A model generated the notes under the pieces. It made no database searches. It was not told the origin of the DNA and worked only from the letters and a program-made list of their open reading frames with translations. Below, in pieces: positions 195 to 25,462 of a stretch of 26,520 bases of DNA. The stretch lies in the IMG/VR virus record IMGVR_UViG_3300031227_000348, positions 1 to 26,520 of that record; one strand, 5' to 3'. Every line of letters begins with the position of its first letter. The first letter of the stretch is position 1. The position numbers and the translations under genes are program-made. Source of the stretch: a virus.

Positions 195-2330
195 ATGGCA
201 CAACTTTGAGTAAAAGAAATTCGACAAGAAATCAAAGATGAATTAAATAGACGCAAGAAATATTTAAGTTATGACTTTGGTAAAGGTCTAAATGATACTG
301 ACTATCAAGAATGAAATACGAAAACACCTTGAATAACAATATATTCAAACGTTAAAGAAAGAAATAATGAGGCGGAGACTAATAGCGATAATTGAAATGA
401 AGTTAAAATTAATGGGAAGGTACAACTTAGACGTGATCTAATGAAGGATTATAATGACGAACTTGCTAAAAAAAATATTTTAAATGGTATTGCATCTACT
501 GACGAAAATCTGCCGAAATCATTTGATGAAATTTATAATAGCAATCCAAATGATGATTTTCCTTATAGACCATTACCAACATTAGAAGGTTTAACGGTCG
601 AAAATATTGATGATTATGGTGCTGTAAGAAAATCGAATTTTAAATTTACCTGTTATACGATGCAACAGTTGGAGGATATGCAGAAGTTATATATGTCTCC
701 GGGCGCCTCAATTATTGCACAATGAGGTTGAAGTTTTACAAAATCACAAGTCGAATTTATTAAATTTACAAAATCAAATAAAGCAGAAGAGTCAAAGGAT
801 GTATTTAAAAATTCGGAAAAAATTAAAGAAAAGATATATGATTCTGACGGAAATTATGGGGCTTTTGTAGGGAAAATTACAAAATTTGATTGAAGTTTAA
901 ATGATGATGGTAGTTTTAGTTGCTCAACAGAAGCAGTATCAAGAGGATATGTTGAATTATTTCAGAACATCAAAGAAAGTACAATAGTTACTATAGATAA
1001 TGATGAACTGACAATAATTGATTTATTAAATAAAATACAAGAAAAGAAGAATAAGTTCGATTTTAATGAAATAAACGTCTCCGGACATTCCGTATGATGA
1101 CATAAGACACTATATTTGTCTATAAAGCTTATATTTGAAATTATAAATTTCTTTTATATTCGAGAAGAAAATGATAAAGCATCTATTTTTAAAAATTTAG
1201 TTGTTACACATAATGAAAGTGAACCAATGCTTTATTATACTGTTCAAATTGGTAACAGAACAATACATCCTGCATTAAGATCGCTGGACAGAAATGTGTT
1301 TATAATACCAACAAACACATTAAAAAAAAATAGGGGTTTAGAACTTGATAACTGATTTTCACAAGGTTGAAATAAAGATACATCCAATGTTGATAATATA
1401 TTAGTCTCTATAAGTACTGTTATAGAAGCGTTTTCAAATGCCACAACTTATAAGAATGGAGTGATGAATATATTAGAAAAACTAAATACTTATTCAAATG
1501 GATTTTGAGACTTGGATTTAGAAATATCTCCCGAAAATTTTGTGCGAATAACTGACAAAAATTATTCGTCGTCTTCAATTCCCGCAAATATTAATGAAAA
1601 TAATATAATTAAAGAGGCTTTCACATTTCCGTCATATGGCGCTTATTCTATGTTACAAACATTAAGTATTTCCTCAGAACTTTCTGATGGAATGAAAAAT
1701 GCGGCTGCTTATGGGGGAGTTGGCTCTCCAAGCTCAAAAACGTCAAGAGGTTTTGGAACTCTTTATGGAAATTTAAGAGATGATTTTAATAAATCTTGAG
1801 GCGGTAAAACTGAATATGTTAGAGATGCCATAAAGAAGCCTTCAGGAAAAATTACAAACATCAACGAGGAAATGGAAAAGTATGTTAATAGTAAAAAGTT
1901 TTTTAAAGAATTGGAAATACCAAGTGATTATTGAACATATATTGAAATGTGTTGAGGTTTAAGTGATGACAAAATAAATAATTCAGGATATACTAGTCCT
2001 ATATTAATTCCTCTAAATTTATCAATAACAATTGACGGAATAGAAGGACTGCAATTTGGAAATATTATTACGATTGATTACTTGCCGGATATATATAGAA
2101 AAAATTGTGCATTTGCAATTACAGGCATTTCACATGATATAAGTAGAGATGGATGAACAACAACGATAGATACTCAATTTAGAATCAAATCTGTAAAAAT
2201 TGACTCAAATGCAAAATATGAAGATATTGAAGTTGAGAATACTGAAATATGAGTTGCACCTTCTGAAAATAGAGAATACAACGATATTATAATACCTGAT
2301 GGAAATCTTACTATACCTGAGGCGGAATAA
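195..2330 (+). CDS. Baseplate hub / tail tip protein (gp27-like role)
   Basis: Read with TGA=Trp this is one uninterrupted 711-residue protein; in the standard code it falls into many short fragments. It has 17 TGA and no TGG tryptophan codons. The segment around bases 860-990 (GKITKFDWSLNDDGSFSCS) and the C-terminal part around 2095-2190 (ISHDISRDGWTTTIDTQFRI) resemble phage baseplate hub proteins, where the second motif is typical of the gp27/gpD beta-barrel fold. The gene lies directly after a LysM-like baseplate gene, and its TAA overlaps the ATG of the next gene (TAATG), so they are translationally coupled. It is probably a late structural protein of the tail tip. The family is inferred from motif style; 'tail/baseplate structural protein' is safer than the exact gp27 label. 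Confidence 0.7.
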
Positions 2331-2860
2331 TGGCATATACAATAGGTAATAAATTTTTATTAAATAACAAAAGGTATGTTGGAATATACAACAATGGTCC
2401 GGATAATAATTATTATACGGGAGGAAATTATATCTTTGGTATTTCAGAACTTTTAACTCCAATTATTACAGAAAATAATGGACATAGAATAGGTGATATA
2501 ATATATGATTCTCTCGAAAGTCAATTTACGAAAAGAGAAATTAATTATGCAATTGATTATTATCCTAAAGTAACTGATAAGATTTTAAAACAGGGATTTA
2601 TTATGAGATATTTTGCTCAACAATGAAATGATTCAAACGCCAGAATTATAGAGATTGATAGCAAACAGTTTGACAAAATTGATAAAGGATTTTATAGAGT
2701 AATTAAATTAAAATGATTAATTGTTGGCAATATTAATATTGTTAGTAAAAATAATTTAAAAGAAGTAAATGACAATGCAAAGATAATGTCTATGATTATT
2801 TTTAGATTAACAAATCCAATAGAGCTATATAATAGTGAATATACTGATATAATTTATTAA
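2330..2860 (+). CDS. Hypothetical protein, probably tail/baseplate associated
   Basis: This 176-residue protein begins on the ATG that overlaps the hub gene's stop and ends at TAA 2858-2860. Two internal TGA codons (QQWND and LKWLI) are read as Trp; there is no TGG. The middle contains GFIMRYFAQQ followed by IIEIDSKQFDKI, a pattern I associate with small structural proteins of T4-like marine phages, but I cannot name a family. No membrane segment or signal peptide is visible. Tight coupling to the hub gene suggests a structural or assembly role. Confidence 0.6.
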
Positions 2861-2909
2861 TTATGATAGAGTAAAGTATATAGAAAATATTATAAAAGAA
2901 GGTTACTTA

Positions 2910-4235
2910 ATGCAGATTATTCACACTACAAAGGAATTAAACACAATTGAGCTAAAAAATGACATCATTATAATACCTATTTTAAATAATAACATATATC
3001 ATGCGAGTGTTAGTGAGCTTTGTCTGTTATATATTTACGAGTTGAAAACTAAAAATGAATATATGTTATCATTTAATCATATTGATACCTCTTCACATTT
3101 AAGATTAGACGATTTAAAAGTGTTAAATAATAATAGAGTGAAATATGTCTATGATAAAAAAGAAATGCTTCAAATATATGAATTTACCAATTTAAGTGAC
3201 ATTTCTCTTATGCAATATCTCAGAATAAATAAGAATATTAACATTGATAGATATTTGACAAAAGCACATCATTATTTTTACAAAAAATTTCCCAAATATA
3301 GTGCTGTTAATATTTTGATTCCAATCTTTAAACATTTTGAAATGTGTAATAATTTAGCGAAAAGATTTGTGTCAATAATTAGTAAACACATTAATGATGA
3401 AGAGTTTAGGTTTTATAATGAACAGGCAGTTATCGCTTTTAGCGAAATTGAAGCTAACGGACTATATATAAATAAAGATAAGTTTATGAAGAGCTTCGGC
3501 TTTGGTCCCGCAAAACATATTGTAAATAATAAGGTTAACACAAAGTATAATTTCAACACTATCACTGGCAGACCGTCAAACTCTTTTGGTGGAGTAAATT
3601 ATGCGGCATTAAATAAAGCTGACGATAGTAGAGCGTGTTTTATTAGTAGATTTGACAAAAAAGGTACGTTAGTTGAATTAGATTATGTTGCTTGTCACTT
3701 ATATTTAATTGCAGATATTATTGAGTATGAATTTCCTGATGGATTGACTGGGCATGAATATATGGCATCACAATATTTCGGAGTAGATAAGCCAACAGAT
3801 GAAATGGTTCAAAAGTCTAAAGCAATTACATTTAAGCAAATGTATGGTCATGTTAGTGCAGAATACAAACATATTGAATTTTACAAGAAGTTGAACGAAT
3901 TCGTAAATTTAATATGGGTAGAGCACTATAAAAACAAAGACGTTATACCGATAATCGAAAGAAAGGTGCCTATAATAGACAACAAACAGAAGTTGTTCAA
4001 TTATTTTGTCCAGAATTATGAAACTAAGCGAAATATCCCGCTAATAATAACAGTTAATGAATTACTCAGAGATTACAAGAGCTGCTTAGTATTGTATACG
4101 TATGATTCGATTCTGATTGATTTTCACATTGAGGATGGGAAGAAACTCGTTAAAAAAGTAAGAGATATTCTGACAGAGAGTGGACGATTCCCAGTGAAAA
4201 TTAAACATGGCAAAGACTATAAAACTATAAATTAA
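2910..4235 (+). CDS. Family A DNA polymerase (Pol I-like), short form
   Basis: This 441-residue protein synthesises DNA in phage replication. Residues 219-224 (TGRPSN) match the TGRxSS motif before the palm. Residues 254-269 (VELDYVACHLYLIADI, catalytic D258) correspond to motif A, and 300-313 (QKSKAITFKQMYG) to the fingers O-helix. Residues 396-403 (YTYDSILI, D399) correspond to motif C, with YDS in place of HDE. Residues 173-192 (VIAFSEIEANGLYINKDKF) resemble the segment that opens the polymerase domain. The N-terminal ~170 residues show no clear 3'-5' exonuclease motifs, and at 441 residues the protein is much shorter than bacterial Pol I. It has one TGG and no TGA. It sits alone among structural and unknown genes rather than with the replication block at 8.9-15 kb. 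Most T4-like phages use a family B polymerase, so this is atypical. Confidence 0.85.
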   Translation: MQIIHTTKELNTIELKNDIIIIPILNNNIYHASVSELCLLYIYELKTKNEYMLSFNHIDTSSHLRLDDLKVLNNNRVKYVYDKKEMLQIYEFTNLSDISLMQYLRINKNINIDRYLTKAHHYFYKKFPKYSAVNILIPIFKHFEMCNNLAKRFVSIISKHINDEEFRFYNEQAVIAFSEIEANGLYINKDKFMKSFGFGPAKHIVNNKVNTKYNFNTITGRPSNSFGGVNYAALNKADDSRACFISRFDKKGTLVELDYVACHLYLIADIIEYEFPDGLTGHEYMASQYFGVDKPTDEMVQKSKAITFKQMYGHVSAEYKHIEFYKKLNEFVNLIWVEHYKNKDVIPIIERKVPIIDNKQKLFNYFVQNYETKRNIPLIITVNELLRDYKSCLVLYTYDSILIDFHIEDGKKLVKKVRDILTESGRFPVKIKHGKDYKTIN

Positions 4236-4309
4236 TAATAAAAATTTTTCAATAATTCAATATTTATTAATATAAACAAGAAAAATACAGTAAGGAAACA
4301 AATAATATT

Positions 4310-6190
4310 ATGAATATATTAAATGAATATATAGATAGTTTGGTTGAGAGGGTTGTAGCAAAAACACATAATGCCTTTGTTGATTGAAATAATACAAAAC
4401 ATATTCTGGCTTTGGAAACAATATTGACTGAGGATGGTGTGCCATTTTATTTGATTAATGAGTTAGTATTAGACTTGCAAACGGAAAAAAAAGAAACGAA
4501 AAAAGATGATAAAAAAGTGGGAACTGAATTTCCAGCGATAAATGTTGATTCTGGGAATCTTGTTTATTATGATTCAGAAGAGACAAGAAAGAAAGCTTAT
4601 GATAAAAATAAAGCAAGAAAGTTAACCTCTACCGAACTTGATAAGGCTAAAACTACTAAGACTAAATCTGCAAATGACATTGCGAATGATAGTGAGAATA
4701 AAACAACAAGTGATAAATCTAATAAAGATAATACCAATTATAAATGAAAAAAAAGAGAGACACCTTCTGATAATAATATAGAGGCGAGTTCTGAAGAAAT
4801 TTTATCAAACAAAATCGTCGGAAAAGAGAAGGGACTAAAGCAAGGTGGTCCGACAAATGACAATGCATATGATAGAGATACCAACGTTAATGAGGAAGAT
4901 TTTCTTAAAAATATGGAAAAAATTAACGTCTCTGTATTGCCGTCTGAGAAGAGATTTAAAATTGATACGAATGAATTTAACGCATTGGTTCCACGAAAGT
5001 ATAGAAAATTTATTGAAAGAGCAATGAACACACGTAAACCGAAAGAAGGTAATATTAAGGCCTCTGAGATGTTTGACTCCGATGCAGGTGCAGGCGCAAT
5101 ACAGTCTCAATTAGGTGAAGTTTTAACAATGGTTGGAGCTACAATGTCAAAAGATGAATTTACGGCGTTAGCAAGGAAAATGAACGAACATGTTAAAACA
5201 AATTTTCCGAATAATAAAGGTGTTATTACTTCAGATTGAATAGAATCGTCCGTAAAATCTGCTGAAACAATTAGAGGTTTGGTCGAAGAAGAGTTTGGAG
5301 AAGGTGCCCTAATTATTGCTGGTGCTTGAGACAATGAAGAAGATTTTAACTTAATTGGTGGAACAAATTATAAAGAGAACAAAGGTTATAGCACCGATGT
5401 TTATTATAAGGTTAGAACAAAAAATAATGAAGACAAATTGTTTGAGGTTTCTTTAAAGAAAAATCTCAATAATGTTTATATGCTTAACAGTGGGTTTGAC
5501 AAGGTGTTTAATGAAGAGCCCGAAAGTTCTACAAATTACAAGAAGAAAAACGGAGAAAGATTGCTCAATTTAATACCTAATGTTAAACAGTATACCGATA
5601 AAGGTGATGAATATATGATTAAAAAACTTAAAATTTCTAAAATCAAATTAGCTACATTAAAAAGTTTATTAAGTAAAGACAGAGACAGTCTTAGTCAAGA
5701 CGATTATAAAGTTCTTAATCAAATAATCTATCAGATAAATAAAGTAAATAAAGATGAAACATTTTCTAACTATCTTACTAATGATGCGACCGAACATAAA
5801 GAGACGCAAATGGCTCTAAGTAAATGAGCCGTTGAAACAGAAGAAAAAAGAAAAAAGGTAGAAAAAATCATACAAACTAATTTTCCTTTCAATTCAATTG
5901 GAACTGGTGAAGAAGTTATGGTTTTGGGCGAAAATAAAATAAATAGAAAAACATTAAAACAAATATTTGGAACATCAGATTTCAAAGAGCTTCATAAAAA
6001 ACTAAACGTAAAATTAAATGACAAAGGTACTCCTATAATTACATACAAGGCTGATGCTAATGGCAAGGAAATACCAATAGCAGATGTTGAGATAAGACAA
6101 AAGCCTAGAGGTGTTGGCTCATTTACATTTTACGTAAAGTTATCACCAAAAATACAAAAACTTATTGCGAAAGCAAATAAAGCAAAATAA
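4310..6190 (+). CDS. Large unknown protein, possible PD-(D/E)XK-like domain
   Basis: With TGA=Trp this is a continuous 626-residue protein (5 TGA, no TGG) ending at TAA 6188-6190. Residues ~60-190 are low-complexity, rich in Lys, Asp, Thr and Asn, and probably disordered. A folded region follows (RFKIDTNEF, KYRKFIERA, AGAGAIQSQLGEVLTMVGA). Around residues 340-395 there is AGAWDNEEDFNLIGG, then STDVYYKVRT (D363), then LFEVSLKKN (E379, S381, K383). The D...E/S-x-K spacing resembles a PD-(D/E)XK nuclease-type core, but this is only a motif resemblance. A structural (virion) function is equally possible, since the TGA-rich codon use matches the tail genes. I do not recognise the family with certainty. 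Confidence 0.6.
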
Positions 6191-6211
6191 CTATAATTAG
6201 GAATAAATAAT

Positions 6212-6616
6212 ATGAATAAAGAATATGTAAAGAATCAGTTGTTATGTACTTTTAGCAAACAAAAATATTTAGATGATACCATAAATAATATTAAAAGCGA
6301 ATATCAATTAATAAACAATAAAATTATTACAATTAATAATGTAGAAAATGAAGATGAATTATTTTGTATATATAATATAATTATTACAAATGGAAATGTT
6401 AATTTTCCAAATACAATATTAATACATAGAAAAAGAAAGACAAACACACTTTATACGATTAATAGCTTAAACAATATGATTTGAGTTTTAAATGACGGGA
6501 ATTTCTCGCATGACTTCATTATACCCTGGGAAAATTATCGAAATACACTTTGAAGAATGAAAGAAGATAAATTAGACATTGTAAAAACACAATTATATAA
6601 AACATTTGAATTATAG
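6212..6616 (+). CDS. Conserved hypothetical phage protein
   Basis: This 134-residue protein starts at ATG 6212 after AGGAATAAATAAT and ends at TAG 6614-6616, including two TGA (MIWVL, TLWRM) and one TGG (IPWEN). The second half holds HRKRKTNTLYTINSLNNMIW and FIIPWENYRNTL, a signature I associate with a small uncharacterised protein of T4-like marine phages. It has no membrane segment and no catalytic motif that I can name. It is spaced 21 bases after the large unknown gene and 10 bases before the next, so the three are probably co-transcribed. Confidence 0.6.
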
Positions 6617-6626
6617 GAGATATATT

Positions 6627-6866
6627 ATGAAGAAATCAGAAATACGAGCAATGATAAGAGAAGAATTAAACACAAGTAAGGAGTACATTGTCTGAGGTAT
6701 TCCAAGAGGAAAAGATGATGAGGAAGTTCTTTACACAAAAGCGAAAAGTGAAGGTGAAGCTAAAAAAATTGCTAAGTATTTGTCAGTAAAATTTGGTGCT
6801 AAAAAGACAAGAGTTCAAATTCTTGATTTGACAACAAAAATTGACTTTACAAAAGCTATCAATTAA
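6627..6866 (+). CDS. Small hypothetical protein with IREEL-type N-terminus
   Basis: This 79-residue protein is preceded by TAGGAGATATATT and ends at TAA 6864-6866. One TGA is read as Trp (YIVWGIPRG). The N-terminus MKKSEIRAMIREEL is an amphipathic helix containing I-R-E, similar in kind to the short leader peptides of nearby genes. The rest (DDEEVLYTKAKSEGEAKKIA, then TRVQILDL) looks like a compact alpha/beta protein found in phages without known function. Confidence 0.6.
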
Positions 6867-6879
6867 AGCGAAAAATATA

Positions 6880-7485
6880 ATGAAGACGATAAAGTTTCAA
6901 AAATTATTGAATGAGGGCATATCTGGTAGTAAATTAATTGTTGTTGATATACAACCAGCGTATGAAAAAGAAGTTAAAAGAATTAAAAGTAAATTCATTA
7001 AAGATTTGATAAATTTTAATGGTAATGTATTATATTTATATAACGGACCTGATATGGGATATCATGATGATGAAGGCGTAATTGAAAATTGAATTAGAGA
7101 AGAGACTGATGATTGAGATGTCGATTTAGAAAATATTGAGTTTGTTGAAAAAGGATATGGGTTCTTTCGTGATGTAATGGATGGAAATTATGATGAGTCT
7201 GATATTATCGAATTGATTGGCTGAATGATTAAAAATGACAAATATGATGTGAGAGATATCGATGAAGACGATTTGAAAAATATAATTGATGATGAAGATT
7301 TAATACATGAAATTCTAAATGAGAGAGTTTTTCTTGCTCTACCTCAATTTGATATTGATATATTAAAGAAATTTAAAGGTGCAAGTATATGTGGAGGCGG
7401 TAAAAATGAATGTTTAGCAGAGGTTCAAATTTTATTAGCGGCAATGAAAATAAAAACGAAAGTAATAAATAAGTATGTATATTAA
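6880..7485 (+). CDS. Cysteine hydrolase (isochorismatase-fold)-like protein
   Basis: I chose ATG 6880 rather than upstream TTG codons; the protein has 201 residues with three TGA Trp codons and no TGG. After a 12-residue leader (MKTIKFQKLLNE) comes KLIVVDIQPAYE, the usual first strand with the Asp of isochorismatase-like hydrolases. GYGFFRDVMDG sits in the position of the Lys/Arg loop, and near the C-terminus ASICGGGKNECLAEVQ carries a candidate nucleophilic Cys, followed by MKIKTKVIN. The order matches the cysteine hydrolase fold, though the middle is acidic and divergent. The substrate is unknown. The leader is nearly identical to that of the ADP-ribosyltransferase-like protein at 7782. It is followed 12 bases later by the FeoA gene; no shared pathway is shown by the sequence. 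Confidence 0.65.
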
Positions 7486-7497
7486 AAGAGAAGTACA

Positions 7498-7773
7498 ATG
7501 AAAAACAATGGACTTGGCAGGGGAAGGCGTTGCCACAGAAAAAACAGACGTGACGCTTATGTAGAGAATGGTGATAATTATCATATAGTTGGTTATTGTT
7601 GTGAGGATTGTGATTTACGCAAAAAGCTAATGAATTACGGGCTTTTTAGAGGCGAGGAATTTAAAGTTATAGGTAAGGCGCCTATGGGTGACCCAATAGA
7701 GATTAAGATAAATGGTTATCGTCTTTTTATTAGGAACAATGAATTGAAGAAATTAATTTTAAAGAAAATTTAG
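7498..7773 (+). CDS. feoA: FeoA-domain protein
   Basis: This 91-residue protein ends at TAG. Residues ~35-90 (YCCEDCDLRKKLMNYGLFRG, then FKVIGKAPMGDPIEIKINGY, then RLFIRNNELKKLIL) follow the FeoA pattern closely: L..LG...G..v.V...AP.GDPI.I...G..L.LR..E. FeoA is a small SH3-like cytoplasmic partner of the ferrous iron transporter FeoB; the same fold forms the C-terminal domain of DtxR-type regulators. The first ~25 residues are Arg-rich (GLGRGRRCHRKNRRD) and extend beyond a minimal FeoA. Four cysteines (12, 34, 35, 38 approximately) could bind metal, which is inference. No feoB is in the window. It sits between a cysteine-hydrolase-like gene and an ADP-ribosyltransferase-like gene, so it looks like host-derived accessory cargo. 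It has no Trp codons. Confidence 0.8.
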   Translation: MKNNGLGRGRRCHRKNRRDAYVENGDNYHIVGYCCEDCDLRKKLMNYGLFRGEEFKVIGKAPMGDPIEIKINGYRLFIRNNELKKLILKKI

Positions 7774-7781
7774 GAAATGAC

Positions 7782-8342
7782 ATGATAAAGACAGTTAAAT
7801 TTCAGAAATTATTAGACGAAGATGTAAAAATATATCATGGAGACAATCATAATACGAAACGTATAGATATCAAAATGATGATGCAACAAAACGCAAATAA
7901 TCAAGAAGGAATAGGTATATATTTTTCGGATGATATTAGCACAGCAGAACATTATGGTAGTAACGTTATTTCAATTGATATTAGTAAAAAAAACTTTGTG
8001 GAAAGTCGTGATCTAGCTAATTTACATATTAGTAAGCAAAAGTTAATATTATTACTAAAAGCAATGACAAAGATTGATAAAGATGAAATGTTCTATTATA
8101 TGTCAGATTACACAACGTTGATAGGACCTGATGATATAACTAATTCTACATATTTAAAGGTAGTGGATATGATACTCGACAATGAAGTACGTAATTTGCA
8201 AATTGAATTGGCTAGAATTATTGGTGTTAAATCTTTTGTGAAATTATGAAACAAAATAATAAAAATTGACGGAACATATCACCGTAATGGCTCGGATATT
8301 TGATATGCAGTTATTAACCCAGAATATAATTTAAACAAATAG
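7782..8342 (+). CDS. ADP-ribosyltransferase-like protein with propeptide-like leader
   Basis: This 186-residue protein starts 8 bases after the feoA stop and includes two TGA Trp codons (KLWNK, DIWYA). After the leader MIKTVKFQKLLDE come VKIYHGDN (the H of a YHG strand), EGIGIYFSDDISTAEHYGSN (the IYF strand and following helix) and VISIDISKKNF. The C-terminus is IWYAVINPEYNL. This is the layout of the H-Y-x ADP-ribosyltransferase superfamily, where YHG and GIYF bind NAD; I cannot assign the third catalytic residue safely. The leader matches that of the 6880 gene and ends in L-D-E, resembling the cleavable head-targeting sequence of T4 internal proteins and of the T4 Alt ADP-ribosyltransferase. 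A role as a protein packaged in the head and injected to modify host targets is inference. Confidence 0.65.
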
Positions 8343-8353
8343 GAGAAAATATA

Positions 8354-8680
8354 ATGAATAATGAAAATTTCAAAAAGTTATTAAGAGAGTACAAGCAGAC
8401 TGTAATTAAGGAAAGTTATAACGAAGGCAAATTAATTAAAGCATTAGCGAGTGATGCAGGTAACACCGTTGATCTTTGACTTGCAGTTGAATTAGATGAA
8501 TTTATGAATGGCGATAAACAAACTCAGTATGATTTAGTCAAAAATAGTTTTGATAATTATATTGAAGATGTTTACGATGATATTGAAGATGATTTACCAG
8601 ATGATATTGATATTGATAAATGATTAAATAAAAACAGAAAAAAAATAATCATTGCTATAATAAAAAAGATAAATAGATAA
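8354..8680 (+). CDS. Acidic hypothetical protein
   Basis: This 108-residue protein follows an AGGAGAAAATATA ribosome-binding site and ends at TAA 8678-8680, with two TGA Trp codons (DLWLA, DKWLN). The start MNNENFKKLLREYKQTVIKE is again a helix with an L-R-E step. The body is strongly acidic (DVYDDIEDDLPDDIDIDKW) and it ends with a basic tail NRKKIIIAIIKKINR. No known family recognised. The LxE-type start suggests it belongs to the same head-cargo-like group as the two preceding tagged genes. Confidence 0.55.
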
Positions 8681-8864
8681 AATACTACTATATAGCGAGT
8701 TATCTTCGAGAAAAAAAATCGCCAAAAATAAAGAAAAAATGATATAAACGCAAATGACGTGATATATATTATCAGTCAAGGTTACTTCAAGCAACCAGTA
8801 ATGGGAAATGCTAAATGGTAAATAAAAAATGACAAAAAAAGAAATGGAAAAAGGAGAATGGAAA
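8681..8864 (+). promoter_or_regulatory. Leader of the SSB gene with small hairpin
   Basis: A 184-base untranslated stretch before the single-stranded DNA-binding protein gene. Bases 8780-8796 can form a hairpin (GGTT paired with AACC, one mismatch, then CT with AG around a three-base loop). The strong AAGGAG at 8851-8856 decides for the ATG at 8865 rather than in-frame ATG 8829 or 8844. T4 gene 32 is autoregulated through a structured leader, so a similar role is conceivable, but no pseudoknot is evident by eye. I see no convincing -35/-10 pair. Confidence 0.3.
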
Positions 8865-9647
8865 ATGGGAATTAATACGGATTTTTTAAAGAAACGATTG
8901 AATCAATTACAATCAAAGAGAAACGCACAAACAAATGTATGGAAACCAACATCGGGAGAAACACGGGTTAGAATAGTGCCTTACAAATTTAATAGAGAAA
9001 ATCCCTTTATTGAATTATATTGGCATTATGGTCTTAATAACAAGAGTTTTGTATCACCTATTTCGTTTGGTGATCCAGATCCAGTTGTAGAATTTGCTGA
9101 TGCATTGAAAGCTACGGGAGAATCTGATGCTTGGAAAAGTGCTAAAGCAATAGAGCCTAAATTAAGAACTTATGTTCCGGTTGTTGTAAGAGGCGAAGAA
9201 GGCGAAGGAGTTAAGTATTGGGGTTTCGGAATTAAAATTTACGAAACATTATTAAAATTAATATCTGACCCAGAATGGGGTGACATTACTCATCCAAATA
9301 CGGGAAGGGATATTGTTGTAGAGTTTAAAACAGCCAAGGAAGCAAAGGCAGACTACCCTCAAACAACTATTAGAGTGAGCCCATCACAAACTAAACTTAC
9401 AAATGATGCTAAACAATTAAAATCACTATTAAATGATCAGTTGGAAATAACTAGCGTATATTCTATACCTTCTTATGACGAACTCAAAAAACAATTAGAA
9501 ACTTATCTAAATGGTCCAACAGATGCAACAGATGCAACAGACGCAACGAAAATGGCAGAAACTCCTGATGAAATGGATGACATTGAAGATTCCACTGATG
9601 ATGATTTAGATTCAGTAATGGAAGATTTTGATAGTCTCATAGATTAA
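8865..9647 (+). CDS. 32: Single-stranded DNA-binding protein, gp32-like
   Basis: This 260-residue protein coats single-stranded DNA during replication and recombination. It starts MGINTDFLKKRLNQLQSK, a basic N-terminus like the self-association region of T4 gp32. The core follows (SGETRVRIVPYKF, PFIELYWHYGL, FVSPISFGDPDPV, YVPVVVRGEEGEG, KYWGFGIKIYETLLKLI). It ends in a strongly acidic tail (DDIEDSTDDDLDSVMEDFD), the interaction tail of gp32 proteins. There is no cysteine, so the zinc site of T4 gp32 is absent. All five Trp codons are TGG and none TGA, in contrast with the structural genes. A 9-base tandem repeat codes for the TDATDATDA linker before the tail. UvsX follows 33 bases downstream. 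An upstream ATG at 8829 would add 12 residues but has a weaker ribosome-binding site. Confidence 0.85.
   Translation: MGINTDFLKKRLNQLQSKRNAQTNVWKPTSGETRVRIVPYKFNRENPFIELYWHYGLNNKSFVSPISFGDPDPVVEFADALKATGESDAWKSAKAIEPKLRTYVPVVVRGEEGEGVKYWGFGIKIYETLLKLISDPEWGDITHPNTGRDIVVEFKTAKEAKADYPQTTIRVSPSQTKLTNDAKQLKSLLNDQLEITSVYSIPSYDELKKQLETYLNGPTDATDATDATKMAETPDEMDDIEDSTDDDLDSVMEDFDSLID
9519..9545 (+). repeat. 9-base tandem repeat x3 inside the SSB gene
   Basis: Three copies of ACAGATGCA (the last with one change, ACAGACGCA) encode the TDATDATDA linker between the SSB core and its acidic tail. In-frame slippage could vary the linker length without breaking the gene. Confidence 0.8.
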
Positions 9648-9680: not shown

Positions 9681-11195
9681 ATGGGAAATACAGATTTAAG
9701 TTCTTTAACTAAAATATTACATGATACGTTAAACAAGAAACATAAAACGCAAAAGGTTGCATATTTTCTCGATGAAGATATTTATACTCCTACTGATGTG
9801 AGGGACTGGCTAAGCACCGGTTCCTCAGTTTTAGATTTGGCAGTGGCAAATGTTCCTAATGGTGGAATTCCTTATGGTCGTATCACCGAGTTACAAGGTT
9901 TAGAGGGTTCGGGCAAGTCGTTAATTGGTGCACACTTACTGGCATCAAATCAAAAACAAGGTGGGATATCAATTTATATTGATACTGAAACATCCGTATT
10001 CAGACCATTTTTGGAAGTGATTGGGGTTGATTTAAAGAAATTGTTATATGTTCGATTAAGTTTGGTTGAGGACATATTTGAAACAATTGAGAATATGATT
10101 GTAAAAGTTCGAGAATCAAATAAGGATATAAAATTAGCCATTCTAGTTGACTCTCTTGCAGGGGCAACCACAAAGGTTGAACAAGAAAGCGATTATGATA
10201 AAGACGGGTGGAGCACTGCAAAGGCAATTATTACATCTAAGGCAATGAGAAAAATTAATGATATGATTGGAACACAAAATATAGCGTTGATATTTACTCA
10301 GCAATTAAGAGTTAATCTAGGAGTTACATTCGGTGACAAATATTGTGTTGACCCATATACAACAAAAATCAAAGTAAGGTATAATAAACAAGTAGAAGAA
10401 ATAGTAATAGCAGAATTCGCAGAAAGATTTATAGGAATTAATGATTTCATAACACCAGAAATATATGATTTATCAACGCATGATATAGAAATTTATGGAA
10501 AAAATCAAAAAACAGGAAAAGATTGTTACAATTCAATAAAAACTTTTGTTGTCAAGCCCTCTGTTGAAACATATTGGACAGATGGGAAACTTAATGGAAC
10601 AAATAAACATACAATTATTGAAAATAATAATAATATTTGCTTAGAGGATCATAAGGATTTTTCAAAAGTGAATAAAAAAATGGAAGTTGTTGATTTTGAA
10701 ATAGATGATAGTCACAATTATTATGCAAATGGTAGGTTAAATCATAACACCACAAGTGGTGGAAAAGCTCTTGGGTTTCATTCAAGTGTTCGTATCAGAC
10801 TTGACAAATCAACAAAAATATATGACAAACGAAAAGACTGTATTGGAATGAATATCAAGGCGAAAATTATTAAGAATAGATTAGGGCCGCCATTAAGAAT
10901 AGCAGTATTTCAAGTTTATTTTGACAGAGGAATAGACGACTTAAGCTCTTGGCTACAAGCATTAAAAGATAGAGATATAATCACTGTTGCAGGAGCGTGG
11001 TATTCAATAACACTTGAAGATGGTACAGTTAAGAAATTTCAATCAAAAAATTGGGGCGAAATTATGTCCGACAAAGCAATGTATGAATACATATATGGAT
11101 TATTATGTGATGCGTATATTATGAAATATAAACCGAAAGAAGTTATTGACATTGATGAAATTGTAATATCAGATGAAGCAATTGAAGGCGATTAA
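9681..11195 (+). CDS. uvsX: RecA/UvsX recombinase interrupted by a mini-intein
   Basis: The 504-residue precursor yields a recombinase of about 369 residues after splicing. GLEGSGKS (residues 73-80) is the Walker A motif. KLAILVDSLAG (151-161) is the Walker B strand and ALIFTQQLRVNLGVTFGDKY (202-221) corresponds to the L2/DNA-binding region. The extein resumes at TTSGGKALGFHSSVRIRL, matching RecA's TxGGxALxFxxSxR. The intein occupies residues 222-356. The protein drives strand invasion in recombination-dependent replication. All six Trp codons (five in the extein, one in the intein) are TGG. AGGAG lies 13 bases before the start; the 5' nuclease gene begins 3 bases after the stop, implying coupling. 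Confidence 0.9.
   Translation: MGNTDLSSLTKILHDTLNKKHKTQKVAYFLDEDIYTPTDVRDWLSTGSSVLDLAVANVPNGGIPYGRITELQGLEGSGKSLIGAHLLASNQKQGGISIYIDTETSVFRPFLEVIGVDLKKLLYVRLSLVEDIFETIENMIVKVRESNKDIKLAILVDSLAGATTKVEQESDYDKDGWSTAKAIITSKAMRKINDMIGTQNIALIFTQQLRVNLGVTFGDKYCVDPYTTKIKVRYNKQVEEIVIAEFAERFIGINDFITPEIYDLSTHDIEIYGKNQKTGKDCYNSIKTFVVKPSVETYWTDGKLNGTNKHTIIENNNNICLEDHKDFSKVNKKMEVVDFEIDDSHNYYANGRLNHNTTSGGKALGFHSSVRIRLDKSTKIYDKRKDCIGMNIKAKIIKNRLGPPLRIAVFQVYFDRGIDDLSSWLQALKDRDIITVAGAWYSITLEDGTVKKFQSKNWGEIMSDKAMYEYIYGLLCDAYIMKYKPKEVIDIDEIVISDEAIEGD
10344..10748 (+). other. UvsX mini-intein (cis-splicing, 135 residues)
   Basis: The intein begins with Cys (TGT 10344) right after the extein residues FGDKY and ends with the typical GRLNHN (Asn codon 10746-10748), followed by extein Thr. 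Both junctions restore the RecA sequence GVTFGDKY-TTSGGKA. The pre-C-terminal stretch VVDFEIDDSHNYYANG is the usual block F. At 135 residues there is no room for a homing endonuclease, so it is a mini-intein. It sits in the L2 DNA-binding region, a part where most interruptions would be lethal unless removed. Confidence 0.9.
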
Positions 11196-17694: not shown

Positions 17695-18564
17695 ATGTTT
17701 ATGAATGACTTTCAAAAAGAAATTTGAGTACAAAATTATAAATTACCTTCGGAAAAAAAAATACAAGATACATGATTAAGAATAGCAAAAGCAACCGCAG
17801 AGGTTGAATCTGACAAGAAATATTGAGAAAATAGATTTTATAATTTATTAGAGGACTTTAAATTTGTCCCAGGAGGACGAATTAATGCTAACATTGGCAT
17901 TCCAGATAGAAAAGGAACGACATTATTTAATTGTTATGTTCATAATCCAAAAGACATTAACTTTCCAGACCCAGATTCAATTGAAGGAATTATGGAAATG
18001 GTAAAGCGTCAAGCTCTCACGTTAAAATCAGAAGGTGGATATGGAATGAACTTTAGCTGAATTAGACCAGCAGGAACGTATATTAACGGCATAGGTGCAA
18101 GGACACCAGGCGTATTAAAGTTTATGGAAATGTGAGACAAATCATCTGAAATTATTACTATGGGAACTACAAAACGTTTTGGCAAAAAGGAAAAAAATGA
18201 AAAAGTCAAGATAAGAAAAGGTGCCCAAATGGGAGTTTTGAATTGTTTCTCGGAAAGTACTGAAATATTAACGAGCATGGGATGAATGGATATAATTGAT
18301 ATTATTAATGAAACGTTAGATGGCAAAAAAATACTAGCATTGGATAAAAACGGAAACCCTCACGAAATATATAATCCAATTATAAAAGAACCAGAACAAT
18401 TATACGAAATTGAAACAGAAAACGGCGCAATTGTACAGGTTACTGCTGATCATAAATTTGAAGTTTATAATATTAATACAAAAAAAACCTATCTAAAAGC
18501 AATTAATAATATTGATATCAATACAGAAATGATTACAACGATAGAAATTCAGGATGAAAAATAA
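17695..18564 (+). CDS. nrdJ: Ribonucleotide reductase class II, piece 1 + split N-intein
   Basis: This 289-residue polypeptide joins NrdJ residues 1-183 to a 106-residue N-intein and stops at TAA 18562-18564. The extein shows YWENRFYNLLEDFKFVPGGR, then FNCYVHN (C80, first redox cysteine), GGYGMNFSWIRPAGTYINGI, TPGVLKFMEMWDKSSEIIT and KIRKGAQMGVLN. Here the reductase sequence breaks, to resume in the next piece with [10 protein letters not shown]. All six Trp codons are TGA, and several fall at classic Trp sites of the family, fixing UGA=Trp. NrdJ makes deoxyribonucleotides from ribonucleotides using adenosylcobalamin. AGGAG before the ATG shows independent initiation. The peptide alone cannot be active. 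Confidence 0.93.
18244..18561 (+). other. Split intein 1, N-terminal half (106 residues)
   Basis: It begins at Cys (TGT 18244) after GAQMGVLN and carries block A (CFSESTEILTSMGWMDI) and block B with the TxxH motif (GAIVQVTADHKFEVYN). It ends with a stop instead of continuing to a C-terminal half. By residue count it has 20 acidic and 9 basic residues (net about -11), the opposite of its partner at 19605-19739 (net about +7). Charge complementarity of this kind is how natural split inteins find each other. Confidence 0.9.
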
Positions 18565-18628
18565 AAATTATTACAAAAAAATGTAGCATCCAGATATTTA
18601 TATGTAAAGACGAAAGGAGATTTACAAT

Positions 18629-19654
18629 ATGGAAGAAATTAAAATGTTGCAGTATAACCTATTACTTGATAGGAAAATATCAAAAAATAATCATAATGAA
18701 TATGTTGTGTGCCCAACTTGTAAGAAAAATATTACTTTTAACGGATGTACTTCACATTCAAAAATACATTCAGACATATTAATTGCAAAGAAAGCATTTA
18801 TAAAAAACAAATATTTATTTCAAAATTATTGTTTTTGTGGAAATGAAATATTTGTTCCCGAAAATATTAAAGATGCTAGACGAAAACATACTCATTTTTG
18901 TTCATCAGAATGTTATAATATAGCAAAAAATAAAGTTAAAAATTATTACAAAAAACAGCAAATGAAAAAAAAGTGTATAATTTGTGGTAAAGCATTCAAT
19001 GCTAATCATAAAGACACTAAAACATGTTCATATAATTGTTGAATAAAATTATTATCAATAAAAACAAAAAATGTATGAAATAATAGAACTGATATTGAAA
19101 TTTCAGAAAAAATTTCTTCCGGATCATTGGGTAAAAAAGGATGCAAAGCGTGAAACAAAGGTCTTACAGGAAATGACTATATGAAACATTACATAGATGA
19201 GAATGGAAACAATAGTTTTTATGAAGCATTATCAAAAAATGACAAATGGTTTAGAAAAACAAGTATTGAAAAAAAATTTGAAGATTTATTGGAAAAATTA
19301 AATGCAAATTATCAATATAGTTTCTTTACACAGAATTCGCAATTTGATTTTTTAATTTCAACAAATAATTTCGTTTATATAATAGAGTTAGATGGAGATT
19401 ATTGACATAAATCAAGAAGATTATTTCCAAACGAAACTGACAGGGAAATGAAAAGATTAGAGGATAATCTTAAATCGAATAAAATAAAAAATATAATTAA
19501 TACTAAAAAAAACTGAATTGTATTGAGAATTTGAGAATACGATATAAATAACAACTTTGGTATTATTGAAGAATGAGTTAAAAAATTACTAAAAGAGGAA
19601 AAAAATGACGAAACAATATACGAAATTAAAAAGAATTACTCCAATTGAAGTTAA
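18629..19654 (+). CDS. Vsr-like homing endonuclease inside split intein 1
   Basis: A 341-residue protein with its own GAAAGGAG site, readable only with eight TGA as Trp (one TGG). The N-terminal half has three Cys-rich zinc-finger-like motifs (CPTCKK...HSKIH; YCFCGN...HFCSSEC; CIICGK...CSYNC). Next is a NUMOD-like SGSLGKKGCKAWNKG at ~165-177. From ~210 a Vsr/PD-(D/E)XK-like nuclease domain has FDFLI (D240), VYIIELDGDYWHKS (E253, D255, H260), a D271 helix and IVLRIWEYDI. It matches the endonuclease family described for fractured genes with split inteins (Dassa and co-workers, 2009). It would cut nrdJ alleles that lack the insertion. Its 3' end overlaps the start of the C-intein reading frame by 50 bases. 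Confidence 0.88.
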
Positions 19655-19739
19655 TAAATCATATGACTTTGCGGTTAAAGATAGTCACAGAATAATTGCC
19701 AGGAAAAAGAATACAAATATTGGCATTTATACATCAAAT
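19605..19739 (+). other. Split intein 1, C-terminal half (45 residues)
   Basis: It contains [16 protein letters not shown] (block F) and ends GIYTSN before extein Cys (TGT 19740). The penultimate residue is Ser, not the usual His, as in the DnaE split inteins, whose C-halves end in ASN. It is basic (10 Lys/Arg against 3 acidic), complementary to its acidic partner. Confidence 0.88.
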
Positions 19740-21407
19740 TGTTGACATCCCGATATCGAAGAATTTATTATAGCAAAACAAACGCAGGGAAGATTAACAA
19801 AATTTAATTTATCAGTAGGAATTACAAAGGGTTTTATGAACGCTGTTCAAAATAATGAAATGTGAGAATTAAAATTTCCAGATACTCAATTTGAAAAATA
19901 TAAATCTGAGTGAAATGGTGATTTAGAAGAGTGAGAAGTAAAAGGCTATCCAGTGAATGTTCACAAGAAAATTAAAGCCACAAAATTATGAGATATAATC
20001 ATGTTCTCTACATATAATAGAAATGAACCAGGAGTATTATTTTTAGACTTGGCAAATAAATTAAATACAATACCGAAAAGTGAAACATTACAAACCTCGA
20101 ATCCCTGCGTTACTGGAGATACTATAATTAGTACAGATAAGGGCGACATTACAATAGAAGAATTAATCAAGAATGGTATTAATAATTACAAAGCTTTGAC
20201 ATACAATACAAAAACCAATAAAACAGAATGAGAAAATATTGTTTGGGGAGATAAGACTAGAGATAACGCAGATATTATTCAAATTGAACTTGAAAATGGT
20301 AAAATTTTGAAACTTACGCCAGACCACAAGGTGTGAACTGAGAATAGAGGATATGTAAAGGCATCAAATTTGACAATACATGATGAATTAGTTACAAATA
20401 AAATGTCTCAAGAATATATTAAAAGAATGGAAGCAATTAAAAAAATAAAAATAAAAAAAATAAGTATAATTGAAAACGAAAATGTTTATGATATTACTAC
20501 AACTAAAAATCACAATTTTTTTGCAAACAACTTATGTGTTCATAATTGCGGGGAGGTGATTATGTCAACTGGCGTATGTAATTTAGGTTCATTAAATCTC
20601 GTAAAATTTATAAAAAAGAACAAATATACAAACGATATATATTTTGATTGAGAAATGTTTAGTGAAAATGTTGAAACTGCTGTAAGATTTCTTGATAATA
20701 TTAATGATATATCAACAACACCTTTGCCAGAATATGACAGATCTTTAAAAGATAAGAGGCGAATTGGTCTAGGAGTTATGGGACTTGGTTCGATACTACT
20801 GATGTTGAGATATCGTTATGGTTCAGAAAAAGCAAAAGAGTTTTGTGAAAAATTATGAAATTTAAAATCATCAACTGAAATTTTAACTTCGGCGAAACTT
20901 GGAAGAGAAAAAGGTTCATTTAATCTATTTAATAAAGATGATTATTTTAATACATATTGGTGAAATAATTTACAAATTAGTGAAGAAACAAAAAAGAAAA
21001 TTAAAGATGTTGCTTGTATGAGAAATAGTCATAGATCGGCGAATGCTCCCACGGGAAATTGTGTTAGGAAAAACACAAAAATTCAAACAAAAGATGATAT
21101 AAAATCAATTGCTCAAATCTTTAAGGAAAACAAAATTGACATATTAAAAGAAGAAAAAAATCAATTTTTTCTTCCAATAAAAACAATAGAGGTTAAAACT
21201 TTGAATGGATATAAAAAAATTATTGGACTTTATATAAATAATAATAATAAAGTATATTCCATTAAAACAAACAATAATAATAAAATTGAAGGAACAAACG
21301 AACATAAAGTCTTAGTTAAAATTGATAATAAAACAGCAAAATGAATTGAATTACAAAATTTAAAAGTAGGAGATAAAATTTTATTAGAAAAGGGACGCTC
21401 ACATTAA
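19605..21407 (+). CDS. nrdJ: NrdJ piece 2: C-intein 1, extein, cis-intein 2, extein, N-intein 3
   Basis: A 600-residue polypeptide with its own GAGG site. Residues 1-45 are C-intein 1. Residues 46-167 are NrdJ ([46 protein letters not shown]) and 168-314 an internal intein. Residues 315-485 are NrdJ again: [18 protein letters not shown] with the catalytic Cys and Glu of NPCGE and the second redox Cys, then GLGVMGLGS and [11 protein letters not shown]. Residues 486-600 are N-intein 3, ending at TAA 21405-21407. Eleven Trp codons are TGA and two TGG. The piece must splice at both ends and in the middle to contribute to an active enzyme, so the three reductase cysteines come from two different translation products. 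Confidence 0.92.
20106..20546 (+). other. Contiguous mini-intein 2 in NrdJ (147 residues)
   Basis: It begins at Cys (TGC 20106) after TLQTSNP and ends LCVHN before extein Cys (TGC 20547). Blocks are visible: [20 protein letters not shown] (A), [20 protein letters not shown] (B, with TPDH) and [17 protein letters not shown] (F). It has no endonuclease. Removal restores NPCGEV, so the insertion lies exactly in front of the catalytic cysteine. One TGG and two TGA codons occur in it. Confidence 0.92.
21060..21404 (+). other. Split intein 3, N-terminal half (115 residues)
   Basis: It begins at Cys (TGT 21060) after ANAPTGN and ends at a TAA. Block A is [20 protein letters not shown], and block B-like sequence is [14 protein letters not shown]. 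It is basic (24 Lys/Arg against 13 acidic, net about +11), whereas its partner at 22458-22598 is acidic, the reverse of split intein 1. Confidence 0.88.
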
Positions 21408-21446
21408 TATTTATACACATAAAAAAATTAAAGGTAGGTGCTTTGA

Positions 21447-22457
21447 GTGAAAAAGAAAAGAGGAAAGTACAGAAGTTATAAAATGAGAATATATGAGGAA
21501 AACTCAAAAGAAGTTGCCGATAAATTATGACAAGATTATTTGTCAAAAATATCTCAAAATTTAAATGGTTTTATAAAAAGATATGGTGAAGAATTGGGCA
21601 AAAAAAAATATAATTCATTTATTGAGAAGTCTAAACATACAAAGGCTAAATACATTAAGAAATATGGTGAAATTTTGGGTAGTAAAAAATGAAACGCTTA
21701 CATTCAAAAGAAAAAAGAAACATCTAAAAGAAGTATTGAATATTGATTAAAAAAATATGATGACGATTATGAATTGGCAAAAATTGCTCAATCAAATCAT
21801 CAAAAAAGAGATATAGACTTCTTTATTAAAAAATATGATAAAGAACTTGGTGAACAAAAATATAATCATAAGATAGAAAAACAAAGAAAATCAATAAATG
21901 AGCATTACAAGCTTCCCGGCGCCAAAAAAGCTCATGCGGTATCTATAAAAAAAATGATAAAGAAATATGGTAAAGAACTTGGTGAACAAAAATATAAAGA
22001 ATATTTATTAAAAACATAACCAAGTATAATTTGAAAGCGATCATCTGTTTCAAATGTTTCGCAAAAATTTTGTAAAATGCTTGAAAATAATATTAATAAA
22101 GAAACAAAACAATATATAAAATATGCAACAAAAAATGATGAATGATGGATTTATGACTCTAATAACAAAAGATATTTTTTTTATGATTTCACAATAATTA
22201 AACATGATAATAAAAAGATAATAGAATTTAATGGAGATTTTTGACATGCAAATCCAAATATTTATACCGAAAATTGAAACCATAAAGTATTAAACACAAC
22301 GGCAAAAAATTTATGAAAAAAAGATGAATATAAGCATAATTTAGCTCGAAAAAATGGTTTTGATATATTAATTATATGAGAAAAAGAATGAAGAGATAAT
22401 AAAGAAGACGTTATTAAAAAAAGTATGAATTTTATAAATAATATTAAGGAGAAATAA
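21447..22457 (+). pseudogene. Vsr-like homing endonuclease inside split intein 3, cut by in-frame TAA
   Basis: One reading frame runs from GTG 21447 to TAA 22455-22457, broken only by TAA 22017-22019. The part before (190 residues) holds about five repeats of the type IKKYGEELGEQKY (near 21570, 21655, 21745, 21820 and 21955), a DNA-binding array style known in phage endonucleases. The part after holds the nuclease domain: KKIIEFNGDFWHANP, then NLARKNGFDILIIWEKEWRD, the same Vsr-like core as the 18629 gene. Ten TGA and one TGG are used. A fresh start at ATG 22077 could still express the nuclease domain alone, but without a ribosome-binding site. I read this as recent decay by a nonsense mutation; a sequencing error is the alternative. 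The final stop abuts the ATG of nrdJ piece 3 (TAAATG). Confidence 0.75.
21839..21997 (+). repeat. Two 27-base direct repeats in the second endonuclease
   Basis: Bases 21839-21865 and 21971-21997 are identical, 132 bases (44 codons) apart, and encode the same KELGEQKY unit. They reflect the tandem protein repeat and would favour recombination or slippage in this decaying gene. Confidence 0.85.
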
Positions 22458-22598
22458 ATGGAAATTATAAATATTGAAAATTTAGATCTAATTGAAGAAG
22501 AAATTCAATCAATTAAATTAATTAAAGATGATACATACGATATAGAAGTTGAGGATGTTCATCATTACATTTTAAGTAATGGAATTATATCACATAAT
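22458..22598 (+). other. Split intein 3, C-terminal half (47 residues)
   Basis: It contains DDTYDIEVEDVHHYILSNG (block F) and ends GIISHN before extein Thr (ACA 22599). It is acidic: 12 Asp/Glu against 2 Lys, net about -10, complementary to basic N-intein 3 and opposite in sign to C-intein 1. Confidence 0.9.
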
Positions 22599-23735
22599 AC
22601 AGGAATTTATGCTGGCATAGTATCTGGTGGTATCGAACCTGTATTTATGAAGCAATATACACGTTGATCAATTGTTGTGGATAATGATAAAAGAAAATTG
22701 CTAGAGAAAGGTATAAAATTTCCTGATACATCATTACAAGAATGATTTGAAACTGATGTTTTTAAATTTAGTAAACGTGGTGATGAACAGATTTTAAGAG
22801 CAACGATTGATGATACAAATTATGAAATTGATAAAAATAGAGGATTGATAAAGGCAACTGATGTAATTGATTATGGTTATAAATGACTAAAGGATAACTT
22901 ATCAGAGGAAGAGTTTGAAGCATTGGATGAATATACTTTAGGAACTACAACGACATTAACGGTAGATGAACATATTGATATTTTAAATATCGTAAGTCAC
23001 TATACTGATATGAACTCTAGCAAAACGGTAAATTTGCCAAATGATTACCCATATAATGATTTCAAAAAATTATATATGAATGGATGAGAAAATAACATAA
23101 AAGGCTTGACGACATATAGAGCAGGTACTATGACTGCTGTATTAGAAGAAAAGAAAGAAATTGTAAAATATCAAACTGAATTGGAGAAAATGTTTATAGC
23201 TGCCAATGGTAATGTTATTGAAGAAAATGTAAAAATTCCAACGGAATACTTTTCCAAAGGATATGTTATAAAAGATAGAAATAAGAAAAAATGATATTTT
23301 AATGTTGCTTTCGCTGATAGTTCATGTAAGAAACCATTTGCTTTATTTATTACAACAAATGGAAGAACAAGAGGCGAAGTTGCTGATAATGTTATAGAAA
23401 CCATGGAAGTTCTGCTTAGGAAAAATAAAATCAGTGAAATTTTAATTGATAGACAAAAAGAAAAATGTGCAAATGAGAGCAATATAAACAAAGTTGCAAG
23501 GTCTATCAGTATGGCACTAAGACATAATATATCTATAGTTGATATTGTTAACGTATTGGATACTTGCCATGATGGGTTTGCCACTGTATTGTTTGCAACT
23601 AAGAAAATTTTAAGCAAATTTATACAAGATGGAGCAAAAATAAAAGGAGAAAAATGCCCTAATTGCGATAGGCGGACTTTGATTTACCAAGAGGGCTGTG
23701 TGATGTGCAGTAATTGTTCGTGAACTAAATGTTAA
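22458..23735 (+). CDS. nrdJ: NrdJ piece 3: C-intein 3 + C-terminal reductase
   Basis: A 425-residue polypeptide with AAGGAG before ATG 22458. Residues 1-47 are C-intein 3. Residues 48-425 start TGIYAGIVSGGIEPVFMKQY, which continues the SAPTGT-type motif broken in piece 2 (APTGN-TGIYAG). They include NLPNDYPYNDFKKLYMNGW and GLTTYRAGTMTAVLEE, and end with a zinc ribbon (CPNCDRR...GCVMCSNCSWTKC), as usual for class II reductases. All six Trp codons are TGA; the one near the C-terminus would remove the last three residues in the standard code. The three exteins add up to about 854 residues. The stop overlaps the start of a 39-residue frame. Confidence 0.93.
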
Positions 23736-24682: not shown

Positions 24683-25462
24683 ATGGAAGAAAATATAATT
24701 TACAATGAAGATTGTAAAGAAACATTTGATAGAATTTCAGACAAAGCTATTGATGGCATAATTACATCGCCTCCATACAATATTAATACGGAGAGAAGTG
24801 ATTGTTATTATAACAATGGTTACTCTGAGCTCGATAAGTTAAGCGAGGATGATTATTTAAAAATTAGAGTTAATGAGTTCAAAGAGTTTTCAAGAATAAT
24901 AAAAGACAGAGGTGTAATTTGTTATAACATATCTTATGCGAAAGAAAACCCAATTTTACCAACTCTATTAGTTTCAAGAATTCATGAAGAGACCGATCTA
25001 ACTGTTGCTGATATTATTTGTTGGAAGAAAAATACGGCAATGCCATTTCAAACATCTCCGACCAAATTAAGCAGAATTACAGAGTTAATATACATTTTTG
25101 TTAAGAAAGAAAATTTACATAAATTCAAAACAAACAAGAAGATAAGTAAGATAAACAAAAGAACTGGACAAAAATTTTATAAAAATTATACAAATTACAT
25201 TGAAGCTAAAAATAATGATGGTTATAAATGTAATTTGAAAGCATCATATTCACAAGATTTAGTGAATCAACTTATAAATATTTATTTCGCAAAGGGAAGT
25301 TTAATATACGATCCTTTTACTGGTATTGGAACTACACAATTAAGTTGTATTAAAAATGATTGCAATTACATTGGTAGTGAGTTATTAAAAGAGCATTATG
25401 ATAATGCGATTGAAAGAATGAAAAAAATAAAAAATGATAATGGAGAGCAATATGCAGATTAA
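24683..25462 (+). CDS. DNA methyltransferase (adenine-N6 or cytosine-N4), beta-type
   Basis: A 259-residue protein whose ATG directly follows the previous TAA. ITSPPYNINTE (28-33 TSPPYN) is the catalytic motif IV of amino-methyltransferases, and LIYDPFTGIGTTQLSC (DPFTGIGTT at 210-218) is the S-adenosylmethionine motif I. Motif IV before motif I is the beta-class order. The central region (KKISKINKRTGQKFYKNYTN) is the basic target-recognition part. No restriction endonuclease gene is visible beside it, so it is an orphan modifier that could protect phage DNA from host restriction. One TGG and no TGA. Confidence 0.88.
   Translation: MEENIIYNEDCKETFDRISDKAIDGIITSPPYNINTERSDCYYNNGYSELDKLSEDDYLKIRVNEFKEFSRIIKDRGVICYNISYAKENPILPTLLVSRIHEETDLTVADIICWKKNTAMPFQTSPTKLSRITELIYIFVKKENLHKFKTNKKISKINKRTGQKFYKNYTNYIEAKNNDGYKCNLKASYSQDLVNQLINIYFAKGSLIYDPFTGIGTTQLSCIKNDCNYIGSELLKEHYDNAIERMKKIKNDNGEQYAD

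Follow-up and report, generated by a model that had tools for sequence, protein, structure and literature searches.

Many unrelated viruses, among them the phage described here, carry a gene for FeoA without one for the importer FeoB, often in a form with clustered cysteines; this pattern points to viral adjustment of how much iron an infected cell receives. FeoB is the main bacterial importer of Fe2+, and what its small partner FeoA does is still under debate. The DNA analysed (the window) is an incomplete IMG/VR fragment of 26,520 bases from a myovirus-like phage, and it encodes a baseplate wedge protein, a DNA polymerase, gp32, UvsX, an exonuclease and the DnaB helicase.

A stand-alone feoA gene in a phage

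The feoA gene occupies 7498–7773 (plus strand), starts with ATG and encodes 91 amino acids; its frame is open under genetic codes 11 and 4 alike, with no internal TGA. The sole Pfam match of the protein is FeoA (PF04023; E = 2e-14, residues 22–87), which scores 53.9 bits where the gathering cutoff is 23. FeoA proteins made up 11 of its 12 PDB sequence matches, led by Clostridium acetobutylicum FeoA (2k4y; 1e-11), the remaining one being a chance match (E = 0.5), and the NCBIfam equivalog PRK09555 matched at 2e-10, under its cutoff. A preliminary description of this DNA had recognized FeoA by an APMGDPIEI core, which is present at residues 61–69. Within it, the APMGDPI motif (residues 61–67; 7678–7698, plus strand) holds the invariant FeoA columns A61, P62, G64, D65, P66 and I67; together with G48 and R79, all eight invariant columns of a 25-sequence FeoA alignment are intact, GDP motif included. 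The product certainly belongs to the FeoA family, as that description had held. It was also right to place the gene in a phage: feoA is a cellular homologue set among phage genes (for baseplate, gp32, UvsX, exonuclease and helicase), which is one mark of an auxiliary metabolic gene.

An AlphaFold model (m805e61a5d085), built on 25 FeoA sequences with a pLDDT of 79.6, predicts the SH3-like beta-barrel with clamp helices of FeoA. Solved FeoAs ranked first in a Foldseek search with this model, and VIA-align gave a Z of 12.6 against 7r7b (rmsd 1.5 over 72 residues), compared with 11.6 for the best DtxR-type domain, at 9–17% identity for domains of that type; a eukaryotic SH3 protein reached 5.9. 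A closer kinship to other SH3-like domains, which would have overturned the preliminary reading, is ruled out, with FeoA first by PDB sequence, Foldseek and VIA-align Z. FeoA and DtxR-type domains are hardly separable by fold alone; they are separated by sequence and by free-standing architecture. A regulator of the DtxR/IdeR type was rejected, as the protein has no N-terminal HTH and its 91 residues comprise one FeoA domain, with 21 residues preceding the Pfam match.

Orphan feoA recurs in phages

IMG/VR scans revealed orphan feoA in about ten other groups of phage sequences, T4-like phages included, in records of up to 372 kb. PHROGs annotation placed several of these genes in phage surroundings. 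In the T4-like record L117 (L017 type), DnaB, primase, PhoH, FeoA and NrdA are encoded in that order, which puts feoA between phoH and the gene for a class I ribonucleotide reductase. It directly follows phage DNA polymerase B in L180 and adjoins an RNA ligase gene in L161 (372 kb) and L181 (172 kb); L173 (141 kb) also encodes RNA ligase, L118 (the L002 record) an endolysin and a head protease, and L170 PhoH, an endolysin and a protease. L116 (the L019 record), which encodes a phage-type kinase as well as a phage-auxiliary bilin reductase, is probably a phage; upstream of its feoA, at 1385–6998, are the bilin reductase gene (PHROGs) and, by our reading of the sequence, heme oxygenase-like and curli-type-like genes. 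For L167, L171 and L174–L179, phage status comes from the IMG/VR call only. Matches to feoA in INPHARED 'phage' entries were unannotated or plain bacterial, and the eight examined were UNVERIFIED scaffolds; they were not counted as phage evidence. Three of these eight unannotated entries, L150, L151 and L157 (MT835564, OR846594 and MT835957), have feoA beside feoB and are probably bacterial contamination.

The window gene is a feoA rather than a complete Feo system, because no feoB lies beside it. The preliminary description had noted as much, and both an FeoB_C profile search and a scan for G1/G2 motifs of the window were negative. The profile gave no above-cutoff match in nine records, eight of which carry feoA, the window included, with a model of only moderate sensitivity, which passed its cutoff in 7 of 14 control genomes, and viral records that are fragments; scanning the window and related loci for the motifs likewise revealed no FeoB. 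Among 22 further feoA records, FeoB_C was detected in one, L168, a bacterial-looking feoAB that we excluded as a phage feoA and that serves as a positive control. Thus 29 of 30 feoA-bearing viral records have no detectable FeoB, the exception being this bacterial-looking one. Beside the nearest cellular FeoAs, feoB is immediately downstream in all nine cases (L023–L031).

The best pairwise matches of the window FeoA were Cloacimonadota FeoAs, which took the top seven of 80 places at 43–53% identity. A tree that included L019, the other long phage branch, grouped the window protein with Cloacimonadota; when L019 and four long cellular branches were left out, it moved to Clostridia. With 73 columns and long branches, the AU test rejects neither placement (p = 0.46 and 0.45). 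This phylogeny with cellular FeoA, where the preliminary description had called for one against host FeoA, yields two placements rather than a single donor.

Clustered cysteines in phage FeoA

Residues 1–18 (MKNNGLGRGRRCHRKNRR; 7498–7551, plus strand) form an Arg-rich extension that lies upstream of the FeoA domain in the alignment and is disordered in the AlphaFold model (pLDDT 44–49); in VIA-align, residue 1 of 7r7b aligns with model residue 18. The preliminary description of an extra Arg- and Cys-rich N-terminus thus holds for an extension that is real, unusual and rich in arginine, but not for its cysteines. Cys12 is the only one there, and Cys34, Cys35 and Cys38 belong to the FeoA domain, where C34-C35-E-D-C38 (7597–7611, plus strand) lies between beta-1 and the clamp helix, at the start of alpha-1.

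Of 20 phage FeoAs, 9 have at least three cysteines in a stretch of 15 residues, as has none of 121 cellular ones sampled across several phyla; the p-value of 2e-4 is indicative only, as the rule was set post hoc, the two sets were assembled in different ways and automatic clustering was rough. Total cysteine count was rejected as a discriminator, since 4 of the 121 cellular proteins have at least three scattered cysteines; clustering alone separates the two sets. The phage proteins with clusters fall into four sequence families: the window (CCEDC), the L017 type (CKGCHSC), L019 (CNKCKNC) with L167 (CPSCTKC) and L173 (CCGC...C), and L180 (CQPKCKKGCC). The position of the cluster varies, being C-terminal in L017, L167, L173 and L180, N-terminal in L019 and in a loop in the window protein. 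That loop is not a unique site, because the cellular FeoA L213 has two cysteines in its equivalent.

Such clusters raise the alternative that the FeoA fold with its cysteines is a small protein that binds Fe2+, Zn2+ or an Fe-S cluster and serves to buffer metal or to hand it on, whether FeoB takes part or not. Their occurrence at differing positions in four phage families, against 0 of 121 cellular FeoAs, would fit such a role, as would the zinc in the solved structure of Stenotrophomonas maltophilia FeoA (3mhx). Many phage FeoAs, including L002, L161 and L181, however, have no cluster, which is therefore not essential to the trait, and the motif was chosen post hoc; we consider this alternative rather unlikely.

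A proposed action on host FeoB

In Bacteroides fragilis, FeoA binds the GTPase domain of FeoB and stabilizes its GTP form, with F23, I27, M30, I59 and L61 as clamp residues (PMC8980893). Using a constant offset of 17, derived from the aligned ranges of the PDB sequence match and VIA-align, we mapped these to L40, L44, Y47, L76 and I78 in the window FeoA, all hydrophobic or aromatic, with one tyrosine. Because FeoA binds this domain of FeoB and the clamp residues map to such positions, a sound inference is that phage FeoA acts on host FeoB; the preliminary description, too, had suggested modulation of host iron import. Binding to the GTPase domain of the host protein, with Fe2+ import raised or retuned in the course of infection, we regard as an evenly balanced proposition. 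The phage would have taken feoA from a cellular feoAB operon and kept it alone. FeoA would be produced in the host cytoplasm during infection, where its hydrophobic clamp would bind the GTPase domain of host FeoB; the GTP-bound importer would be stabilized or retuned, and Fe2+ import would presumably go up during phage assembly. The clustered cysteines next to the clamp probably serve in metal binding or in tuning the contact with FeoB. In favour of the account we count, besides the clamp, the family, fold and intact invariant columns, the feoB beside the nearest cellular FeoAs, the recurrence of orphan feoA in unrelated phages, nearly all without detectable FeoB, and the class I ribonucleotide reductase gene next to feoA in L117. 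We count against this account the tyrosine at one clamp position, the absence of feoA from close relatives and the fragmentary state of the records. Class I ribonucleotide reductases usually need iron. The enzyme of the window phage explains no iron need, because it belongs to the B12-dependent class II, and its iron demand is not supported as a reason for feoA in this phage.

Phage FeoA could also act as a competitor or inhibitor, taking up the place on FeoB but failing to activate it, so that Fe2+ influx is lowered or capped; this would shield phage DNA from iron-driven oxidation or keep other phages from using FeoB. FeoA slows GTP hydrolysis by FeoB in a B. fragilis fusion (PMC8980893), so extra FeoA could lock FeoB, and the phage protein departs from cellular FeoA in its N-terminus and cysteine cluster. 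Yet its clamp and GDP motif look intact and no feature marks it as a blocker, and we hold inhibition to be unlikely.

Extending the reading in which host FeoB is engaged to raise or retune import, phages may time and again have acquired feoA by itself and time and again have added a cysteine cluster to it, giving a phage-specific class of FeoA that would control host FeoB and carry a metal sensor or sink of its own; this extension is doubtful. If phages use FeoA as a remote control for FeoB, their versions are natural test cases for FeoA function, and ferrous iron would join the host resources steered by viruses, above all in anoxic waters with available Fe2+.

feoA lies in a variable cargo slot

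A sister phage, L010, is collinear with the window at 70–78% DNA identity over aligned blocks, and L004–L007 are near-identical to it. Of the 34 TGA codons aligned between the two, 17 lie opposite TGA and 9 opposite TGG; three further TGA codons in the sister lie opposite TGG in the window, giving 12 TGA/TGG exchanges in total, and no aligned TGA is opposite a glycine codon. Judged by these alignments, the window phage reads TGA as tryptophan (for example, at 6627–6863 and 8354–8677). No tRNA was found in the window fragment. The T4-type major capsid protein Gp23 had no match in ten records, nor in the control. A gp32-like single-strand DNA-binding protein, a phage core gene, is encoded at 8829–9647 (plus strand; PF08804, 45.8 bits against a cutoff of 26.8). 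Elsewhere, the class II ribonucleotide reductase (17695–23735) is split by two or more inteins, and a Vsr-like endonuclease gene lies between its pieces. The UvsX/RecA-like recombinase (9681–11195) has an insertion of about 117 codons (residues 240–356), probably an intein, that is missing in relatives, and an adenine DNA methyltransferase (24683–25462) shows a distant likeness to CcrM (45 bits, below cutoff).

The interval from gene E to gene I is a variable cargo slot, because L010 has neither feoA nor the gene that follows it, and L113, a more distant relative (SSB 68%) and the third phage compared, encodes an acetyltransferase-like (GNAT) protein at this site. The preliminary description had overlooked this slot, the recurrence of orphan feoA in phages and the reading of TGA as tryptophan. 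Gene E, the conserved left border (6212–6616, plus strand; 134 amino acids, with TGA as tryptophan), is syntenic in L010 (69% identity), L113 (64%), L114 and L115. Gene I, the right border (8354–8680, plus strand; 108 amino acids, TGA as tryptophan, N-terminal tag MNNENFKKLLRE), is 54% identical in L010 and 48% in L113. Between them, gene F (6627–6866, plus strand; 79 amino acids, N-terminal tag MKKSEIRAMIREE) is 84% identical in the sister, which keeps only the last 41 codons of gene G (6880–7485, plus strand; 201 amino acids, TGA as tryptophan, tag MKTIKFQKLLNE). The block that follows, feoA with an ADP-ribosyltransferase-like gene (7486–8339, plus strand), is missing from the sister at the same junction: window 7360–7508 aligns with L010 7004–7151, and window 8340–8650 with L010 7127–7437. 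The gene G remnant, at L010 7004–7126, has no usual start codon, and a search for a relative of gene G found none. The assignment of the ADP-ribosyltransferase-like gene (7782–8342, plus strand; 186 amino acids, TGA as tryptophan, tag MIKTVKFQKLLDE) is weak, at 20.9 bits for PF18760 against 31.2, and it scored 22.3 bits against the anti-CRISPR AcrIF11 family, below the cutoff of 50; its structure model (pLDDT 36) was left out of the evidence. A homologue with 42% identity in L119 (2974–3534) has a different N-terminal tag, MRIIA, common to the adjoining genes of that phage.

An N-terminal tag resembling MxxxxFxxLLxE is common to slot genes in the window (6627–8680, in the genes starting at 6627, 6880, 7782 and 8354), in L010 (6765–7808) and in L113 (7280–7744). 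FeoA is the sole slot gene without it and is therefore probably made inside the cell rather than injected.

As it is absent from close relatives, feoA is dispensable. Its third-position GC of 0.32, the highest among its neighbours (0.14–0.28), weakly favours a later arrival, and gain here and loss in the sister fit the data equally. This composition and the absence from sisters are what one would expect if feoA were a recently acquired passenger that is not under selection. We consider this very improbable, given an intact frame, a purine-rich stretch upstream of the start codon, invariant FeoA residues retained at only about 45% identity, and recurrence in many phages. The company that feoA keeps bears on another alternative, in which the SH3-like fold has been re-used as a takeover factor that binds an unrelated host protein and has no role in iron. 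The slot holds proteins that are likely to be host-directed (the ADP-ribosyltransferase-like neighbour, and GNAT in L113), and the window FeoA has an unusual letter make-up and a long branch; but one would not expect such re-use to preserve the GDP motif and clamp, and it is an iron-linked family that recurs in unrelated phages, so that we find re-use of this kind quite unlikely.

Comparison with known systems

Phage auxiliary metabolic genes such as phoH and nrd are likewise host-derived and lie in a variable region beside phage replication genes. Unlike them, phage feoA is absent from the sources searched: we found no report in open papers, no PHROGs family matching the window FeoA and no BFVD match at E = 0.001. 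As far as could be checked, recurrent orphan phage feoA is new. The slot also resembles the internal-protein cargo of T4, which bears a capsid targeting sequence (PMC3012670), in that its genes share a short N-terminal tag and vary between relatives; the likeness of the tag to T4 capsid targeting sequences may serve as a lead, and FeoA differs from such cargo in having no tag. The C-terminal SH3-like (FeoA-type) domain of DtxR, IdeR and MntR regulators has the same fold (Z up to 11.6) but is attached to a DNA-binding domain and shares 9–17% identity, whereas the window gene is free-standing. The closest counterpart is the FeoA of the Feo system (PF04023; 2k4y, 7r7b and 6e55), which the window protein matches in domain, predicted fold, GDP motif and hydrophobic clamp positions, and from which it differs in being phage-borne, with no adjacent feoB, a basic extension of 18 residues and the Cys34/35/38 cluster.
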